Positions 13,112-22,091 of a DNA stretch of 64,000 nt are shown here, piece by piece (within the stretch, counting starts at the first letter, position 1; each line of letters opens with the position of its first letter). Origin of the DNA: Asanoa ferruginea. Its GTDB lineage: Bacteria > Actinomycetota > Actinomycetes > Mycobacteriales > Micromonosporaceae. Position numbers and translations under genes: made by a program. Location: positions 8,122,001-8,186,000 of the forward strand of contig NZ_QUMQ01000001.1 of the NCBI RefSeq assembly GCF_003387075.1, written 5' to 3'. Under the pieces are notes generated by a model. It was not told the DNA's origin and searched no databases. It saw only the letters and a program-made list of their open reading frames with translations.

Positions 13112-14671
13112 TTAGCTGAGGTAGGCGCCGGACAGGTACATGTGCGCGCCGTTGGCCGCGTCCAGCCCCTGCACATGCTTGCTCTTCCCGTAGACCTGAC
13201 CCTCCCAGCCGGGGATCACGTTGGCGGCGCCGTCGTTGACGATGGTCAGCGCGTCGGAGAAGAGCTGCTTCTGCTTCGCCTGGTCGGACGACGCGGTGGC
13301 CTGTGCGACCAGGTCGTCGAACTGCGGGTTGCTGAAGTGGGTGATGTTGAGGTCGCCGCCCTTGCCGTAGAGCCGGGGCAGGGCCTGCGAGATGTGCAGG
13401 CGGGCCACGCTGATGCCGATCGCCGGCTTCTTCTTGAAGATGTCGGTGAAGAACGTGGCGTGCGGCCAGGTGATCACGTTGGCGTTGATGCCGGCCGCCT
13501 CGGCGGTGCTCTTGAAGCTGACCGCGGTGTCCAGCTTGTCGCCCTCGTAGGCGTAGACGTCGAAGCTGAAGTTGCCGCTGACGCCCGCCTCCTTGAGCAG
13601 CGCCTTGGCCTTGTCGGGGTCGTAGGCCCGCGGCTGGAGCCCGGAGGGGAAGAACGGGTCCTCCGGCGGGATCGGGATGTCGGGCGAGATGATGTCGATG
13701 CCCGGCGCCACGACCGACATGATCTTCTTGCGGTCGGCGGCGTACTGCATCGCCTGGATGATCTTCTGGTTGTTGAACGGCGCGGTGTCACCGAACATGG
13801 TCAGCCCGACCCAGCCGCCGTTCTTCAGCATGTAGGGCTCGACGCTGCCCTTGAGCAGCAGCGTGTTGGCGCCGGTGATGTTGTCGACGACGTCCTGGCT
13901 GCCCGAGGTGACGGCCTGGAGGCGGGTGGCGTCCTCCGCGATGACCACGATCTGGATGGCGTCGAGGTAGGGCTTGTTGTCCTGCCAGTAGCCGTCGAAC
14001 CGGGCCAGCGAGGTGCGGGCGGCCGCGTCGAAGCCGGTCAGCGTGAACGGGCCGGTGCCGTTGCCCTTGCTGAAGTCGGTGGTGCCGTCCTTGACGATGC
14101 TGAAGCCGGCGTGCGAGACCATCACCGGGATGAACGCGTTGGGCTTCTTCAGCGTCAGCTTCACCGTGGTCTGGTCGGCCGCCGTGATGCCGGACGCGTC
14201 GAGGTAGGGCCCGATCTGCGCGAGACCGACGGCGGCCAGGGCCGGGTCGAGGATCCGCTTGAACGAGTAGACGACGTCCTGCGCGGTGAGCGGGCCGCCG
14301 TCGTGGAACTTGACCCCGGGCCGGAGCTTGAAGGTCCAGGTCAGGGCGTCGGCGCTGGACGACCACTCGGTGGCCAGGGCGGGGGTGAGCTGGTAGTTCT
14401 CGTCGGCCCGCACCAGCGTGTCGTAGCAGTTGGTGGCGATCAGCAGCGGCATCGTGCCGCCGGCCTTGGCCGGGTCGGCGACCTGCGTGGCGTTGCCGGC
14501 GGCCACCGCCCAGCGCAGCGTGCCGCCCTTCTTCGGGCCACCGGCGGCACCGGCACCGGCGGGCGCCGGCGAACCGTCGTCGCCGCACGCGGCGAGGCCG
14601 AAGACTCCGAGGCCGAGCGCGGCGCCGGCGCCCGTCTTCAACAGGGTGCGTCGATTGATCACATTCGTCAT
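13112..14671 (-). CDS. Family-5 extracellular solute-binding lipoprotein
   Basis: A 519-residue SBP_bac_5 protein that captures substrate outside the cell for the adjacent DppBC-DF importer. The N-terminus combines a twin-arginine motif (NRRTLLKTG, residues 6-14) with a lipobox (LAAC, cysteine 29), so it is probably a Tat-exported lipoprotein. Family motifs include TFKLRPGVKFHDGGPLTAQDVVYSFKR and the later DPDKAKALLKEAG. Ligand cannot be read from sequence; relatives bind peptides, heme, nickel, opines and oligosaccharides. The gene lies 38 bp downstream of the enolase-superfamily gene. Confidence 0.93.
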   Translation of the reverse strand: MTNVINRRTLLKTGAGAALGLGVFGLAACGDDGSPAPAGAGAAGGPKKGGTLRWAVAAGNATQVADPAKAGGTMPLLIATNCYDTLVRADENYQLTPALATEWSSSADALTWTFKLRPGVKFHDGGPLTAQDVVYSFKRILDPALAAVGLAQIGPYLDASGITAADQTTVKLTLKKPNAFIPVMVSHAGFSIVKDGTTDFSKGNGTGPFTLTGFDAAARTSLARFDGYWQDNKPYLDAIQIVVIAEDATRLQAVTSGSQDVVDNITGANTLLLKGSVEPYMLKNGGWVGLTMFGDTAPFNNQKIIQAMQYAADRKKIMSVVAPGIDIISPDIPIPPEDPFFPSGLQPRAYDPDKAKALLKEAGVSGNFSFDVYAYEGDKLDTAVSFKSTAEAAGINANVITWPHATFFTDIFKKKPAIGISVARLHISQALPRLYGKGGDLNITHFSNPQFDDLVAQATASSDQAKQKQLFSDALTIVNDGAANVIPGWEGQVYGKSKHVQGLDAANGAHMYLSGAYLS

Positions 14672-14709
14672 GAGGGGGGTCTCCGATCGCGATCAGTGCA
14701 TGCGTGGTG

Positions 14710-15834
14710 TCAGCCGGCGGAGGCGTGCCGGACGAAGTCCTCGTCGACCGTGATGCCGAGGCCGGGACCGTCCGGAATGGCCATCCGGCCGGTGGTGGTG
14801 GTGAGGGTGAGCGGCTCCTGGGCGAGCCGCGTGCGCATCGGGTTCTCGAACCGGTCCACCTCGAGCAGAGGTGAGTCCGGTCCATCCAGTTCGGAGGGTT
14901 CGGGCAGCAGGCTGATCGCCTGGAGGGTGGCGGCGAGCAGCACCGCGCCGCCCCAGGCGTGCGGCACGCACTGCCGGCCGCGCAGGGCGGCGAGGTCGGC
15001 GACGAAGAGCAGTTCGCCGATCCCGCCACAGATCGCCACGTCCGGCTGGACGATGTCGACCGGGGTGCGGGTCAGATAGGAGTCGAAGGCACCGCGGGTC
15101 TCCAGGCCCTCGTAGGCGGCGATCGCGATGCCCAGGCCGCCGAGGTGCTCGTAGCCCGGGTAGGTCAGCCCGCCCCGGTGCCGGATCAGCGGCTCCTCGA
15201 GCCAGCGGAAGCCAAGGTCGGACAGGCCCCGGGCGACCTCGCGGGCCCGCGGCACGGCGTAGGCGCCGTTGGCGTCGACCATCAGGTCGACATCGGGGCC
15301 GACCTGGTCGCGCACCTTGGCCAGGATCGGCAGCTCGCGGGTGGGCGCGAAACGGCCGATCCGGATCTTGCAAGCGGTGAAGCCGTCGCGGGTCGCGGCG
15401 GAGACCTCGTCGGGCCAGCTCTGCTCGGGGTCGACGCCGTCGACGTAGCCACCGCTGGACGCGTAGCCGCGGACGCTGTCGCGCCGGCGGCCACCGTACA
15501 ACGTGGACACCGGCACGCCGAGGCGGCGGGCGCGCAGGTCGTCGAGGGCGATGGCGAGCGCGCTGAACGCGAGGCCGTCGGCGGTCGCGATGCGCAGCGC
15601 GTCGAGGAGCGGGCGGGCGTCGGCGGCGTCGCGGCCGATCAGCACCTCGCCGACGTCTTCGATGGTGGCGGCGACACCGACGCGGGCGTAGGTCTCGCCC
15701 CAACCGTCGAGCCCGTCGCTGTCGCGGAGCCTGACCAGGACGCTGTTGCGCTCGCGGTAGGTGGCGCCGGACGGGCCGGCGGCCGCGGTGACGGGCTGGC
15801 TGAGCCGGAAAACCTCGACCCGCTGGATCGCCAT
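14710..15834 (-). CDS. Enolase-superfamily (mandelate racemase/muconate lactonizing) enzyme
   Basis: A 374-residue protein with the two-domain enolase-superfamily layout. Visible active-site elements are KIR (lysine 156) for the catalytic base strand, DANGAY (aspartate 187) and EEP for metal ligands, and a late PHAWGG that resembles the histidine of sugar-acid dehydratases. It would abstract the proton alpha to a carboxylate to dehydrate, racemise or cycloisomerise an acid. I start at ATG 15834 because GAGGAG precedes it; a longer frame to 15921 adds unrelated residues and overlaps the promoter. It is the first gene of the 11.4-kb operon and divergent from the GntR regulator. Confidence 0.9.
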   Translation of the reverse strand: MAIQRVEVFRLSQPVTAAAGPSGATYRERNSVLVRLRDSDGLDGWGETYARVGVAATIEDVGEVLIGRDAADARPLLDALRIATADGLAFSALAIALDDLRARRLGVPVSTLYGGRRRDSVRGYASSGGYVDGVDPEQSWPDEVSAATRDGFTACKIRIGRFAPTRELPILAKVRDQVGPDVDLMVDANGAYAVPRAREVARGLSDLGFRWLEEPLIRHRGGLTYPGYEHLGGLGIAIAAYEGLETRGAFDSYLTRTPVDIVQPDVAICGGIGELLFVADLAALRGRQCVPHAWGGAVLLAATLQAISLLPEPSELDGPDSPLLEVDRFENPMRTRLAQEPLTLTTTTGRMAIPDGPGLGITVDEDFVRHASAG

Positions 15835-15891
15835 TGGCCACGCTCCTCGTCGGTCAAAGCTGCCCGTCCCACAGGGCCCCTTTGATCGCCG

Positions 15892-15934
15892 AGTATGTTC
15901 AGCCCACGTTCGAGGTGTCAATACATTTTCGAAT
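15892..15934 (-). promoter_or_regulatory. Operon promoter with shared operator element, copy B
   Basis: Read on the minus strand, TTGACA (15921-15916) and CATACT (15897-15892) are separated by 18 bp and form a good sigma-70-type promoter for the enolase-superfamily operon. The 29-bp block 15906-15934 around the -35 box matches 125-153 at 22 of 29 positions (TTCGAAA, TATTGAC, CTCGAAC). The regulator gene diverges from the same 158-bp gap, so it may also be autoregulated from here. Confidence 0.75.
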
Positions 15935-15992
15935 CCGAGCGAGGATCTGTTACTTCACCCGTGACATTCGCGAGTCCGCTAGAGTGTCAGCC

Positions 15993-16685
15993 ATGCCACG
16001 CAGTGAAACGCGCGCGGAGCGCATCTATATCAACCTCCGCGGTGACATCCTGACCGGGCGCCTGCTGCCCGGGCAGCGGCTGCCGTTCGCTGACCTGGGG
16101 GTCCGCTACGGCACCAGCGTTGGCGTCCTCCGCGAGGCGTTGTCCCGGCTGGTCGAGCAGGGCCTCGTGCTCTCGGAGCCGCAGCTCGGGTTCCGGGTCA
16201 CGCCGGTCTCGGAGGAGGACCTCCGCGACCTGACCAGCACCCGGATCGACATCGAGACGCTCTGCCTGCGGCACGCGATCAACCACGGCGACCTGGCCTG
16301 GGAGTCGCGGGTCGTCGCGGCCTACCACACCCTCGACCGCACCCCCGAGCTCGCGACCGTCCAGCCGCGCGCGGTCAACGAAGACTGGGCGACGGCGCAT
16401 GCCGCCTTCCACGCGGCGGTGCTGGAGGGCTGCCCGAGCCGGCGGCTGCGCGACATCGCGGCGTCGCTGCGCGACGCGGCCGAGCTCTACCGGCGCTGGT
16501 CACGTCACCTGGGCAGCGAGGACACCCGCGACATCGCGGGCGAGCACCGCGCGCTGCGCGACGCCGTGCTGGCCCGCGACGTCGACCAGGCCGAGGCGGC
16601 GCTCACGAAGCACATCTCCTATACCACCCAGGCGCTGCTCGACTCGGCACCGGAAGAGCTGATGACGGCCCCGGCCGACGCCTGA
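15993..16685 (+). CDS. GntR-family transcriptional regulator (FCD/FadR subfamily)
   Basis: A 230-residue regulator. Residues from about 5 to 70 form the GntR winged helix (AERIYINLRGDILTGRLLPGQRLPFADLGVRYGTSVGVLREALSRLVEQGLV). The C-terminal helical FCD domain has aspartate in RIDIETLCLRHAI and later histidines in AHAAFHAAVL and AGEHRALRDAV that normally bind a metal and an acid ligand. I start at ATG 15993, downstream of the promoter region; a longer frame from 15834 would be translated across the divergent operator. FadR-type members sense organic acids, so the likely effector is the operon's substrate or product (inference). Confidence 0.9.
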   Translation: MPRSETRAERIYINLRGDILTGRLLPGQRLPFADLGVRYGTSVGVLREALSRLVEQGLVLSEPQLGFRVTPVSEEDLRDLTSTRIDIETLCLRHAINHGDLAWESRVVAAYHTLDRTPELATVQPRAVNEDWATAHAAFHAAVLEGCPSRRLRDIAASLRDAAELYRRWSRHLGSEDTRDIAGEHRALRDAVLARDVDQAEAALTKHISYTTQALLDSAPEELMTAPADA

Positions 16686-16698
16686 CCGGCCCGCGCGG

Positions 16699-17829
16699 TC
16701 AGCCGGGCCAACCGCCGAGCCGGTCGCGCACGAGATCGGCGAGGTCGGCGACCTCCCGCCCGTCGGTGTCGACGCGGAGGTCGCCGATGTCGGCCCGGTC
16801 GAGTGCCGCGGCGACCTCGACGGCCTGGGCCGCACGCCGGTGCAACTCCTCCGGCGGTCGACCGCGCAACTCGTCGCCGGCGATCGCCGGCCCACCGCCC
16901 TGGCCGCGCAGTTCGACGCGCTCGGCGAGCGTGCCGGGCTCGGCGCGCAGCCGGCAGACGCTCCACCGGGCCGACGGAAGCGCGGCCCGGTAGCGGTCGA
17001 GGGCCTCCGCGTCGGCGACGCTGCCGGACAGGACCAGACATTGCGCGCCGGCGGCGTGGAATCCCGGCCACAACCGGGCGAGCAGCGGCGCCGTGAGCCG
17101 GTGCCGGTCGGTCGACGGCCGGCAGAAACCGATCTGCGCCAGGTCGACGTAGGCGGCCGGGATGCCGTCACCGACCACCCGCCGGAAGATCTCGTAGCCC
17201 ACGGTGGACTTGCCGACCGCGGGCGGACCGCAGACCAGCAGGACCGGGAACGCGGCGGGGCGGGGCACCGGCGGCGGTGTGGACGGTGGCGCGGGTAGCG
17301 CTGCCGGCGGCGCCACGGTGCCCGGCCAGCCGCTGTCCCGGATCCGCGCGACCAGCTTCGCGACCGCGGTTCCCGACGTGTCGACGACCAGGTCGGCGAA
17401 GTCGCTGCGATCGAGCGCGTCGGCGTTGCGGATCGCCTCCTCGGTCTGGTCGACGAACGATCCCCGGCGGGCGATCCGGCCGCGCAGTTCGTCATGGCCG
17501 ACCCGTAGCCGGCACACCGTCACGTCGCTGTCGGGCAGCAGTTCGGCGTGCCGGCGCACCTCCGCGGCATCGTCGACCAGGCCGCTGACCACCAGACACC
17601 GCGCACCCGCGGCCGCGAAGGCCGACCACGCCTCGCTCAGATTGCGCGCCCGCAACCGGTGGTTCCGCGGATCGTGCGGTGGCGCGGGGTAGCACAGACC
17701 GAGCTGGTCCAGGTCGACGAAGGCGATCGCGATGCCGGCCCTGCTCAGCTCCTCGAAGAGCGCGAAGCCGACCGTGGTCTTGCCGACCCCGGACGGTCCG
17801 CAGATCCACAGCACCGGGCGTCGCGTCAC
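16699..17829 (-). CDS. Duplicated P-loop kinase-like protein, two AAA/kinase domains
   Basis: A 376-residue protein that is an internal duplication. Walker A GPSGVGKT is at 11-18 and a second, GPPAVGKS, at 201-208, joined by a proline-rich linker (about 171-194). Parallel motifs follow in each half: FVDLDQLGLCYP and YVDLAQIGFCRP, GARCLVVSGLVDDA and GAQCLVLSGSVADA, then VCRLR, and a final ALDRxD...VDT. The layout resembles small-molecule or nucleotide kinases of the AAA_33 or chloramphenicol-phosphotransferase type, but the substrate is unknown. It lies 21 bp behind the JmjC oxygenase gene and is the last member of the repeat-peptide operon. Confidence 0.8.
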   Translation of the reverse strand: MTRRPVLWICGPSGVGKTTVGFALFEELSRAGIAIAFVDLDQLGLCYPAPPHDPRNHRLRARNLSEAWSAFAAAGARCLVVSGLVDDAAEVRRHAELLPDSDVTVCRLRVGHDELRGRIARRGSFVDQTEEAIRNADALDRSDFADLVVDTSGTAVAKLVARIRDSGWPGTVAPPAALPAPPSTPPPVPRPAAFPVLLVCGPPAVGKSTVGYEIFRRVVGDGIPAAYVDLAQIGFCRPSTDRHRLTAPLLARLWPGFHAAGAQCLVLSGSVADAEALDRYRAALPSARWSVCRLRAEPGTLAERVELRGQGGGPAIAGDELRGRPPEELHRRAAQAVEVAAALDRADIGDLRVDTDGREVADLADLVRDRLGGWPG

Positions 17830-17850
17830 CAGCCCAGGCTAGTAGGCCGG

Positions 17851-19122
17851 CTACGCAGGGACGGCGATCGCCTCGCGGAGCAGCCGGCGGGCCAGCACCA
17901 GGCGGTCCTCGTTTTCGTCGAGGCCGGGCAGGTCGCCGACCCGGGTGACGCCGCCGTCCAGGAAGGCGCGCAGGGCGAGCGCGCAGCCGGCCGGGAAGGT
18001 CACCGCGCGGTCGAACACCCGCAGCGTGATCCGGTCGTCGCCGTCGGGCTCCAGCCGCCAGCGCAGCCGTTCCCGGGGCACGATGCGGTCGTCGGGCGCG
18101 AGCGCGCGGATCGCCGCGGCCTGGGCCAGCGGGCGCAGCGCGGCCGGGCGGGCGGCCGGCCAGGCCCGGCGGCGCAGCCGCTCGGCGACCGCGGCCGGTG
18201 ACGCCGTGTCGAGCCAGTCGCGCAGGGCCTCGATCGTCTCGGTCAGCTCCGGCTCGAGCTGGTCGGGGTCGCTGACGTCGAGCGCGTAGGGCAGCGTGGC
18301 CCGCAGTCGCGGGTCGTTGGCCGCCTCGCCGAGCAGGGCCTCGACCAGGGCGTAGCGGGTCAGCGCGCGGATGCCGATGGTCAGGTGCAGGGAGGAGTCG
18401 TCCTGCGCGGCGGCGCTGTGCAGCCAGCCGCGCGGCAGGTAGAGCGCGTCGCCGGGCTCGAGCACCACGTCGAGCGCGGGTTCGCCGGCCGCGGTCGCGG
18501 TCACCTCGTCGGCCCGGCCGTTCCAGTTCTGCCGCTCCAGCGGGTCGTCGAGCACCGGCGGGTGGATCTTCCAGCGCTTGCGACCGTCGACCTGGAGCAC
18601 GAACACGTCGTGGGTGTCGTAGTGGGTGGCGAAGCCCTGGTTGCCCGGCGGGGTCAGGTAGGCGTTGATCTGGAGCGGCTGGCCGAGGGCGGCGCCGAGC
18701 TCGCCGGCGAACTCGATCAGCGGCGGCCAGGTCCGATGTAGACCCTGGAAGACCAGGGTCGCGCCGTCGGCGTACAACGTCAGGATCTTCTCGTCCAGGA
18801 CCTGGTCGTCGATCTCGGCGCCGGATCCGCCGCTTCCGGTGTAGCGGCCGGGCGGCACGAGCGCGCCGTCTTTGGCGACCCTGATGAACGGGGTACGCAG
18901 GCCCCGCCGGCTCAGCAGTTCGTCGGCGTCGTCCGGTGACAGCAGGTCGCGGAAGCCGTCGGCGCCCTCGAGTTCGCTCGCCAGGGAGAGCAGCGGCGCC
19001 CGGCCCCAGTAGGCGCCGGCGAACTTGGCCGGGTCGACGCTGACGCAACGGGACAGCGCCGGGCGGTGTGCACCGCCCGGCGCTCCGGTTGTCAGCCCGC
19101 GGTTCCCGTCAGGCGCTGCCAT
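17851..19122 (-). CDS. JmjC/cupin-4 2-oxoglutarate-dependent oxygenase (ROX family-like)
   Basis: A 423-residue Fe(II)/2-oxoglutarate oxygenase of the ROXA/MINA/NO66 type. The iron triad is visible: H167-Y-D169 in FATHYDTHD and H235 in LPRGWLHSA, with the family core LQVDGRKRWKIHPP. The C-terminal 150 residues fit the winged-helix part of such proteins. Known members hydroxylate arginine or histidine in ribosomal proteins. The usual homology begins at RCVSVDPAKFA; the only in-frame ATG just before it is at 19122, inside the end of the repeat-peptide gene (14-nt overlap through the stop codon), which would couple the two translationally. The N-terminal 25 residues are therefore uncertain. Confidence 0.85.
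   Translation of the reverse strand: MAAPDGNRGLTTGAPGGAHRPALSRCVSVDPAKFAGAYWGRAPLLSLASELEGADGFRDLLSPDDADELLSRRGLRTPFIRVAKDGALVPPGRYTGSGGSGAEIDDQVLDEKILTLYADGATLVFQGLHRTWPPLIEFAGELGAALGQPLQINAYLTPPGNQGFATHYDTHDVFVLQVDGRKRWKIHPPVLDDPLERQNWNGRADEVTATAAGEPALDVVLEPGDALYLPRGWLHSAAAQDDSSLHLTIGIRALTRYALVEALLGEAANDPRLRATLPYALDVSDPDQLEPELTETIEALRDWLDTASPAAVAERLRRRAWPAARPAALRPLAQAAAIRALAPDDRIVPRERLRWRLEPDGDDRITLRVFDRAVTFPAGCALALRAFLDGGVTRVGDLPGLDENEDRLVLARRLLREAIAVPA
19055..19084. promoter_or_regulatory. 30-bp GC hairpin at the peptide/oxygenase junction
   Basis: Arms AGCGCCGGGCGGTG (19055-19068) and CACCGCCCGGCGCT (19071-19084) are exact reverse complements, separated by two bases. It lies 25 bases beyond the peptide gene stop, inside the first codons of the oxygenase. 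It could attenuate transcription or block nucleases so that peptide message exceeds enzyme message, an arrangement common in precursor-peptide operons. No T-run follows, so a strict intrinsic terminator is not shown. Confidence 0.55.
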
Positions 19123-19411
19123 CGGCGCCGCCGTCGTGGGCGTTCGGGTTGGTGCCGCCGTCAGCGGGGCCTTCGGCGCTGCCGTCGGCGCCACCGTCGT
19201 GGCCCTGTGGGTTGGTGCCGCCGTCGGCGACCCCTTCGGCACCGCCGTCGGCGCCACCGTCGTGGCCGGACGGGTTGGTGCCGCCATCCGCCGGGCCCTC
19301 CGCGCTGCCGTCGGCACCGCCGTCATGGCGTCCTGGCATCGCCCCGCCGTCGGCCGGGCCTTCCGCGCTACCGGATCCAGTCGTGGCCATGTCGTCGTCG
19401 TCGAGTGTCAT
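19109..19411 (-). CDS. Repetitive acidic small protein, candidate modified peptide
   Basis: A 100-residue protein with short leader MTLDDDDMATTGSG followed by four imperfect 21-residue (63-bp) repeats. Each repeat contains AEGPADGG or AEGVADGG, then TNP or AMP, and closes with one histidine before DGGADG. There are four histidines, no cysteine, and almost no hydrophobic residues, so it is predicted to be disordered and soluble. The ATG at 19411 follows GAGGGGGC, a good ribosome site. The overlapping JmjC oxygenase gene and the kinase gene downstream make it a plausible substrate of post-translational hydroxylation. I recall similar unassigned proteins in Micromonosporaceae but cannot confirm a family. 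Confidence 0.75.
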   Translation of the reverse strand: MTLDDDDMATTGSGSAEGPADGGAMPGRHDGGADGSAEGPADGGTNPSGHDGGADGGAEGVADGGTNPQGHDGGADGSAEGPADGGTNPNAHDGGADGSA

Positions 19412-19563
19412 CGAGTAAGCCCCCTCGCGCTTGCGGCGCCCCGGGTACGGGGGCGCTCCAGACGCCCCTGTACCCGGCCAGCGATCACCTGTAACCGGCG
19501 ACCGCCCTCAGAATGACCCGCGGCGCCCGGGCTGCGGGGACGAATGCGGGGTATGGAGGACCC

Positions 19564-20304
19564 GTGATTCTCGTCGGCACGTCCGGGTGGCAGTACCGGG
19601 ACTGGCGCGGCCCGTTCTACCCCGAGAAGCTGCCTCAGCGGGCCTGGCTGGAGCACTACGCCGGGCAATTCGCCACGGTGGAGGTCAACAACGCCTTCTA
19701 CCGGCTGCCGGAGCGCGACACGTTCGCCCAGTGGCGGTCCCGCACGCCCGGCGACTTCGTCGTGGCCGTCAAGATGAGCCGCTACCTCACCCACATCAGG
19801 CGCCTCAACGACCCCGCGGAGCCCGTGCGCCGTTTCCTGGACCACGCGGCCGGGCTGGGCGATCGGCTGGGGCCAGTGTTGATCCAACTGCCGCCGAACC
19901 TGAAGGCCGCGCCATCCTCCCTCGATGCCGTGCTGGCCTGCTTCCCGAGGGAGGTCCGCGTCGCGGTCGAGCCGCGGCATCAGAGCTGGTGGACCGACGA
20001 GGTGCGCACGGTTCTTGAGAAACATCGCGCGGCGCTGGCCTGGGCCGATCGGCTGGGCCGGCCGATGACACCGCTGTGGCGCACTACCGACTGGGGTTAC
20101 CTGCGGTTTCACGAAGGAAGGGCGACACCCCGGCCGCGGTACGGGCGAACCGCGCTGCGCACCTGGGCGGGGCGGCTGAAGGACGCGTTCGCCGACGCGT
20201 ACGTCTACTTCAACAACGACCACGGTGGGGCGGCCGTCGTCGACGCGGAGGCGTTCGCGCGCCAGGTGTCGGCGGTCGGGCTGTCCCCGTCGCGTACGCC
20301 ATGA
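19564..20304 (+). CDS. DUF72 family protein
   Basis: A 246-residue DUF72 protein (TIM-barrel-like, function unknown). It opens ILVGTSGWQYRDWRGPFYP and carries EVNNAFYRLP, FVVAVKMSRYLTH, VLIQLPPNLK and AVEPRHQSWW, all typical of the family, and ends with YVYFNNDHGG. I start at GTG 19564 because GGAGG sits at 19555-19559. Its stop overlaps the surE start by 4 bp, so both are co-translated. A second DUF72 gene of a different branch lies at 24838-25704. Confidence 0.93.
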   Translation: MILVGTSGWQYRDWRGPFYPEKLPQRAWLEHYAGQFATVEVNNAFYRLPERDTFAQWRSRTPGDFVVAVKMSRYLTHIRRLNDPAEPVRRFLDHAAGLGDRLGPVLIQLPPNLKAAPSSLDAVLACFPREVRVAVEPRHQSWWTDEVRTVLEKHRAALAWADRLGRPMTPLWRTTDWGYLRFHEGRATPRPRYGRTALRTWAGRLKDAFADAYVYFNNDHGGAAVVDAEAFARQVSAVGLSPSRTP

Positions 20305-21101: not shown

Positions 21102-21581
21102 TCACGCCCACCGTTGCCAGAACCCGGTCCCCCGGAACGTCACCTGTGCGTCGCGCCCGGCGATGACCACTGCCAGCAGGAAGACCTGCACCAGCTCCGG
21201 CGCGCCGGGGAGTTCGAGCTCGACGGCACGCTCCGCGCCCCCGGTCCGGTAGACCCGGCCGAGCGGCGGATCCCCGGAGTCGAGTCGGTCGCGCGCGGCG
21301 ACGATGAAGGTGCGCCGCAGGTGGTAGGTCTGCCCGGCCGAGGTGATGCTCCACCATTCGTCGCGGCCCCGTTCGGCCACGCCGAGCGCGCCGCCCGTCT
21401 CGTCGTGCAGCACGAGCCGGGTGTCCCAGATGGCGCCGGGGATCGAGTAGCGCCGGCCTTCGAGCGTGAACGACGCGGGCTGGCCGTCGCGGAGCACGGC
21501 GTCGAGCGTGGTGACCCGCCGGCCGTCACGGATCACCGCGTAGCGGTTGGTCCACCTGCTGACTTCGCGTGCGACCAGCAC
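21102..21581 (-). CDS. Conserved hypothetical protein, LURP-one-like beta fold (paralogue 1)
   Basis: A 159-residue protein with a run of beta-strand-like segments (RWTNRYAVIRDG, SFTLEGRRYSIPG, WDTRLVLHDETGG, WSITSAGQTYHLRR) and a hydrophobic end VQVFLLAVVIAGRDAQ. The same pattern recurs in its neighbour at 21591-22091, so they are tandem paralogues. The strand pattern recalls the LURP-one/Tubby-like fold, but I cannot assign a function. It lies in a leftward run with the DinB-like gene. Confidence 0.75.
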   Translation of the reverse strand: MLVAREVSRWTNRYAVIRDGRRVTTLDAVLRDGQPASFTLEGRRYSIPGAIWDTRLVLHDETGGALGVAERGRDEWWSITSAGQTYHLRRTFIVAARDRLDSGDPPLGRVYRTGGAERAVELELPGAPELVQVFLLAVVIAGRDAQVTFRGTGFWQRWA

Positions 21582-21590
21582 GCCATCAGG

Positions 21591-22091
21591 CTAGCCCCGC
21601 GCGGCCGGCCGGGCATAGACGCCGCTCAGCTCGACGTGGCGGCGGCCCGCTCGGCGTCCCACATCGCGATGACGACGGCGAGCACGAACACCTGGACCGG
21701 GGGCCGGGACGCCGGGCAGGTCGGCGTCGACGTCGCGGCGCCAGGCGCTGCGCCGGGCCACCGAGCCGACCGGGCGGTCGTCGACGTAGAGCTCCTGCCG
21801 GCTGCTGTTCCACCATGAGGTGCGCTGGAACCGGTAGGTCTGGCCGGCGGACGTGACTGTCCAACGCCGACGCCCGACCCGCTCAGCCGCAGCGAGTTCG
21901 CCGCCCAGCTGGTCGACCAGCGTCGAGCGGGTGCCCCAGAAGTTGCCGCGCACCTCGTAGGGCCGGCTGTCGAGGGTGAAGGTGCCGCCGTGCTTCCAGA
22001 ACGACTGGTCCCAGGTGGTCAGCGGCCGGCCGTCGACGGCGATCTCGTAGCGGTTGCGCCACACGCTGGTGGGCCGCGCGGTCAGCATCAC
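21591..22091 (-). CDS. Paralogue 2 of the LURP-one-like pair, C-terminus frameshifted
   Basis: A 166-residue frame whose first 120 residues align with paralogue 1 (VWRNRYEIAVDG, TFTLDSRPYEVRG, TVTSAGQTYRFQR). The end of the present frame is arginine-rich and unlike the family. In another frame the sequence reads VFVLAVVIAMWDAERAAATSS and stops at 21626-21628, matching VFLLAVVIAGRDAQ of paralogue 1. Removing one of the two C bases at 21697-21698 restores that ending. This is either a recent real frameshift or a sequencing error. The start overlaps the DinB-like gene stop by 4 bp. Confidence 0.75.
   Translation of the reverse strand: MMLTARPTSVWRNRYEIAVDGRPLTTWDQSFWKHGGTFTLDSRPYEVRGNFWGTRSTLVDQLGGELAAAERVGRRRWTVTSAGQTYRFQRTSWWNSSRQELYVDDRPVGSVARRSAWRRDVDADLPGVPAPGPGVRARRRHRDVGRRAGRRHVELSGVYARPAARG

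Follow-up and report, generated by a model that had tools for sequence, protein, structure and literature searches.

In the actinobacterium Asanoa ferruginea, a gene for a short Asp-rich repeat peptide and a gene for a JmjC-type oxygenase form a conserved two-gene unit, located in a 64,000-nucleotide stretch of DNA (contig NZ_QUMQ01000001.1, positions 8,122,001 to 8,186,000; hereafter the window, to which all coordinates refer). We assign a probability of roughly 0.6 to the reading that this pair is a two-gene system similar to those producing ribosomally synthesized and post-translationally modified peptides (RiPPs), in which the NO66-type oxygenase holds the acidic N-terminus of the peptide and hydroxylates the Asp residues of its repeats. 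Taken part by part, the peptide is very likely the substrate of the oxygenase and Asp is likely the site of modification, while binding of the leader by the C-terminal domain of the enzyme is plausible. The pair occurs in many actinobacteria and has the appearance of a so far undescribed system of peptide modification, related to the ribosome-modifying enzymes of humans; none of the literature matches listed describes these peptides. The elements of the locus, including a neighbouring gene discussed below, are as follows.

19109..19411, minus strand: gene for the 100-aa repeat peptide, the proposed substrate or precursor (open reading frame, ORF; conserved 5' of the JmjC gene; pN/pS, the ratio of nonsynonymous to synonymous polymorphism)
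19367..19411, minus strand: leader-like acidic N-terminus of the peptide, MTLDDDDMATTGSGS, residues 1-15 (regex motif in orthologs)
19115..19366, minus strand: four 21-aa repeats AEGPADGGxxPxxHDGGADGx, residues 16-99 (Tandem Repeats Finder, TRF; residue conservation)
17851..19122, minus strand: gene for the 423-aa JmjC (PF08007) 2-oxoglutarate (2OG) oxygenase, NO66/MINA53-like
18616..18624, minus strand: iron ligands H167 and D169 of the HYD motif (invariant in 28/28 relatives and 154/154 orthologs)
18418..18420, minus strand: iron ligand H235 (invariant in 28/28 relatives; 153/154 orthologs)
17854..18177, minus strand: C-terminal 108 aa of the oxygenase with a winged helix resembling a RiPP recognition element (RRE), the proposed leader-binding part (AlphaFold2 model, pLDDT 90)
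16699..17829, minus strand: gene for a 376-aa double P-loop kinase-like protein, a neighbour only, outside the conserved unit

The oxygenase is present in 6/6 Asanoa genomes (its nearest named relatives, at 82-86% identity, are from this genus). Of the 200 Micromonosporaceae genomes sampled, 124 have an ortholog of it, with the peptide detected in 123 and both in 121. Coordinates were checked for each of the 124 family orthologs, and for 81 of them (80 fetched plus the window) the sequence as well. By coordinates the peptide lies immediately 5' and on the same strand at 119/124; a diverged peptide became visible upstream on reading the DNA of three more genomes (G055, G074 and G014), bringing the total to 122/124. 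The contig of G151 ends 118 nt away from the oxygenase. In G114 (loci L116 and L327) peptide and oxygenase are separated by ∼2.4 Mb on one contig, tblastn finding no JmjC gene next to the relocated peptide. In one further genome (G060, locus L094) the oxygenase is split over frames, appearing as three tblastn pieces, and the adjoining peptide is intact.

This arrangement extends well beyond the family. Surveys of the order (298 genomes) and the class (296 genomes), from which 34 and 45 ortholog loci were read, showed an Asp/Gly-rich peptide in place at 33/34 loci (in L244 the contig breaks off, a fragment being visible) and at 43/45 loci, respectively. Under a strict Asp/Gly criterion (at least 33% D+G and at least 10% D in the last 60 aa, with at least 3 motifs), such a peptide was found at 151 of 155 unique ortholog loci versus 0 of 929 control anchors taken from both strands of the same loci. 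The 155 loci exclude six rows from genomes already counted, L237 and L282 being taken as the same metagenome-assembled genome, and the four misses are a short two-repeat peptide (L070), the relocated case of G114 (L116) and another acidic peptide (L322 and L323). Among named loci, which overlap with the surveyed genomes, 78/80 pass the same criterion. A phylum-wide survey of 246 genomes gave 19 oxygenase matches, 10 of them in other classes, and an Asp-rich peptide was found at 9/9 other-class loci having upstream DNA; here the leaders (e.g. VEDEDIVTTW, LTDEQIRTTW, LSDADISRV, LDDEDIETV) precede nearly His-free cores such as DGTDGDGTD and DADADASD. Several of these counts come from regexes or by-eye reading. 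The association of peptide and oxygenase, advanced in an earlier note on this DNA, is thereby strongly supported, and the peptide, whose lack of conservation beside the oxygenase that note had named as grounds for abandoning the idea, proved to be strongly conserved there.

The description of the two genes in the earlier note also held. The peptide is an ORF of 100 residues in which TRF detects a period of 63 (4.2 copies, 79% matches), i.e. four 21-residue repeats, each with a single His placed before DGG. The JmjC gene overlaps the end of the peptide gene by 14 nt, beginning at ATG 19122, the sole in-frame ATG, GTG or TTG of the scanned region flanking the peptide stop; with this start the iron triad takes exactly the residue numbers of the earlier note, and a start at 19047 was dropped in favour of this only in-frame candidate. 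The peptide frame has a pN/pS of 0.07-0.20 in 18/18 pairs tested, indicating that its codons are under purifying selection; one antisense frame with coinciding third positions is also low (0.09-0.37), so that pN/pS alone does not fix the coding strand. An acidic-hydrophobic-T/S leader motif is present in 137/153 ortholog peptide ORFs by a loose regex and is missing from one subgroup (this count and that of His-free peptides below are approximate, as some script-picked peptide starts are wrong), and like leaders stand before differing Asp cores. The Fisher p of 2e-48 obtained in the leader analysis treats kin genomes as independent. The peptide is acidic, short and probably disordered.

The features of the repeats that remain constant point to Asp. 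Across the 253 repeats of 80 Micromonosporaceae peptides (1-5 repeats per peptide by regex), the three repeat Asp positions are occupied in 253/253 (D1), 253/253 (D2) and 252/253 (D3) cases, the pattern used for collecting repeats leaving the Asp positions free and partly fixing neighbouring residues. The A. ferruginea peptide has 12 such Asp residues, and among 153 peptides none is without Asp.

The oxygenase matches Pfam JmjC_2 (PF08007; E 4e-30, 104.5 bits against a cut-off of 22); in NCBIfam at E up to 1 it gets one match, far under the cut-off, and the peptide none. Its assignment as a JmjC/cupin-4 enzyme with an intact iron triad was borne out; H167, D169 and H235 (H142, D144 and H210 in the ORF-list numbering, P0002) and likewise Lys182 are invariant in the 28/28 aligned relatives. 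The similarity to NO66 (27% identity by structural alignment) and MINA53 (22%) extends over the full length, including a helical middle region and a C-terminal winged helix as in NO66. In the alignment of 154 orthologs, from which one short row was dropped, the Tyr bonding the substrate His in NO66 is kept in 154/154, and Gly takes the place of Ser421, a further NO66 residue bonded to that His, in 153/154. Fold searches with the C-terminal domain return NO66/MINA first and then many RREs, and the predicted structure contains the bbb-aaa winged helix of the RRE type; a PqqD sequence profile gave no match to this domain (hhalign probability 0.2%). The RiPP-like character suggested earlier is strengthened by the leader-like N-terminus and the RRE-like domain, the modification itself being putative.

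As the closest solved relatives, NO66 and MINA53, are His C-3 hydroxylases in the accounts available, the proposal of the earlier note that the oxygenase hydroxylates the His before DGG, one per repeat, deserved consideration. His is the commonest residue at this position (142/253); however, it is replaced in 111 repeats (by R in 49, Q in 36, V in 10, E in 9, and others), 19/153 peptides are without His, the other-class cores nearly lack it, and the Ser421 of the His-binding network is Gly in nearly all orthologs. Set against the near-invariance of Asp, this makes His a quite improbable site. Oxidation at yet another residue, such as the Gly alpha-carbon, Pro or Asn of the repeats, is only slightly less improbable. 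Several Gly and Ala positions are nearly constant in Micromonosporaceae, partly because the pattern fixes them, but Gly, Pro and Asn are scarce in some of the other-class cores, whereas all nine are Asp-rich. A different view places the substrate of the enzyme among ribosomal or other cellular proteins and makes the peptide a regulator, chaperone or competitive ligand of the enzyme. The same-fold NO66, MINA53 and YcfD modify ribosomal proteins according to the available text of PMC6006756, and that of PMC9994133 raises regulation by non-oxidised peptides. Yet the regular repeats, their varying number, the invariance of Asp and the differing Asp-rich cores beside related enzymes are what would be expected of substrates and argue for the repeat peptide in that role, so that we regard an external target as unlikely, if marginally the best of these alternatives.

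The earlier note had also envisaged the P-loop protein as the product of a third operon gene, phosphorylating the (possibly hydroxylated) peptide. The gene indeed begins 21 bp past the JmjC stop on the same strand in the A. ferruginea genome, and both halves of its product match P-loop/AAA profiles; but a tblastn search of other loci from the family, order and class, among them those of five congeners, gave no match to it next to the pair, and its homologs in two congeners (∼50% identity) are on contigs other than that of the oxygenase. An oxygenase-adjacent kinase was seen only in the A. ferruginea genome. Of the suggested co-occurrence of three genes, then, the peptide-oxygenase pair recurs and the kinase does not, and its absence from relatives largely refutes phosphorylation by this protein, which we consider extremely improbable.

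Hydroxylation of the repeat Asp residues by the co-encoded oxygenase could proceed as follows. The peptide would be translated first and the oxygenase next, probably by translational coupling; the acidic N-terminus would dock on the C-terminal RRE-like winged helix; and Fe(II)/2OG-dependent hydroxylation would run through the flexible Asp/Gly repeats, with the C-3 (beta) position of Asp as the most likely site. The predicted product is a poly-beta-hydroxyaspartyl peptide with a plausible role in binding metals, for which its repeated beta-hydroxy-Asp groups would be suited. The pair gives a clade of NO66-like bacterial JmjC enzymes a candidate substrate encoded alongside and, with it, a clear prediction of the chemistry. 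If true, the proposal would add to actinobacteria a widespread minimal kind of peptide modification (a peptide and one enzyme), provide an easy means of producing repeated hydroxy-aspartates, and connect the recognition domains of RiPPs with the winged helix found in the ribosomal oxygenases of humans.

Plesiocin-type graspetides have several cores per precursor, and in cinnamycin beta-hydroxy-Asp is formed by a 2OG enzyme; the present pair differs from both in that the JmjC protein is the sole conserved enzyme accompanying an Asp-repeat peptide. With NO66 (RIOX1) and MINA53 (RIOX2) the Asanoa oxygenase shares the fold over its full length, but it is partnered by a co-encoded repeat peptide and carries Gly in place of the Ser contacting the substrate His. 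The Arg hydroxylase YcfD/RoxA, whose substrate is the ribosomal protein uL16 (PMC6006756, in the text available), is clearly more distant from it than NO66. Among the matches listed, both JmjC and RiPP terms occurred only in PMC12710340, PMC12257519 and PMC12707348. The accessible parts of the latter two describe BipG/BpmG and PbsQ, JmjC/cupin hydroxylases (BpmG by prediction) acting on ribosomally made biphenomycin-type precursors. These resemble the Asanoa pair in combining a JmjC/cupin enzyme with a ribosomal precursor (here a proposed one); unlike it, they are ornithine hydroxylases found amid a multinuclear nonheme iron-dependent oxidase (MNIO), a radical S-adenosylmethionine (SAM) enzyme and a protease, whereas the enzyme described here is the single one of a two-gene unit. 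The RRE-Finder update (PMC12710340, section 6) refers to RRE-PF08007 JmjC fusions with bacterial homologs in RiPP-like contexts, in a one-sentence passage that names neither a precursor family nor a substrate residue. Judged from its sequences, the Asanoa pair would work like a RiPP system, although we do not file it as one, since the modification is putative and neither a protease nor an exporter is among the conserved neighbours.

Similar pairings may exist around more distant JmjC_2 enzymes. As judged by eye, a short Asp-rich peptide immediately precedes the JmjC_2 gene in 17 of 26 such loci (L276-L281, L363-L382). The cores are quite different, with (DGTDGDATD)n-like ones in L364-L372, a GGDSDGTDSSSDFI-like core in L377/L378, the core PSDGGGTGRSDTNDGIR in L379/L380, and the LNDDDIT-leader peptide of L277 described below. 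A tree of 71 oxygenases, whose deeper forks are weak and whose long branches come together, mostly groups the rows by core type, three of the repeat type (L257, L324 and L326) falling outside the main group. These data make it conceivable, at somewhat less than even odds, that the pair belongs to an undescribed phylum-wide RiPP-like class, in which NO66-type JmjC enzymes with a built-in RRE make poly-beta-hydroxyaspartyl peptides from Asp-repeat precursors, the winged helix of NO66/MINA53 being the same fold, used in bacteria as a peptide-recognition element.

Among the short ORFs of these distant loci the following were noted. Precursor-like ORFs immediately 5' of the JmjC_2 genes end in PSDGGGTGRSD... 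(L379, L380 and L382) or contain GDSDGTDSSSDFI (L377 and L378), and L279 has a 50-aa ORF at -230 with the C-terminal end DHDPSDPAHIGHDTDPTDCCDH. In L277 a peptide with an LNDDDIT leader and an unrelated Asp/Trp core lies at -262 from the JmjC gene, with an ABC exporter-type gene in the row. Three identical 20-aa ORFs, MSFEIVIVEEQSELLHHPTL, at -1751, -1639 and -1525 from the JmjC gene of L281, where genes of the nitroreductase family and of MFS type stand beside them, and one ORF, MAFEIVIVETDEELLHHPTT, at -1297 in L278 are candidates for a separate micro-precursor.

Beyond the pair, no neighbour cluster is found in more than 39 of 81 Micromonosporaceae loci (crude gene calls), the commonest being a convergent FtsK-like gene (39), a DUF72 gene (23) and a LacI-type regulator ∼1.8 kb upstream (21). 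Nine frequent clusters, which include FtsK-like, LacI, DksA-like, DUF2267, aminotransferase and GH10 members, contain no protease or exporter family by Pfam, three of them having no Pfam match. As neither a protease nor an exporter is conserved there, the peptide may function at full length within the cell or rely on general proteases.

In the window, the pair and the P-loop gene lie between a divergent DUF72 gene upstream and a convergent GntR/FCD regulator gene downstream. No terminator-like site turned up when 16500-19700 was scanned. A perfect 14-bp inverted repeat at 19055-19084, within the N-terminal codons of the JmjC gene, was rejected as an attenuator or terminator; the codons there specify APGGxxRPAL, a segment seen again in relatives, and the repeat is best taken as a side effect of the coding sequence. 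At 21102-22091, two neighbouring similar small proteins of 159 and 166 aa fall in the same cluster of the neighbour grouping, the 159-aa protein having no Pfam match at E 1e-5. Beside a GntR/FCD regulator gene, genes for an SBP_bac_5 solute-binding protein and an MR_MLE enolase-family protein (13112-16685) look like an uptake and catabolism set.
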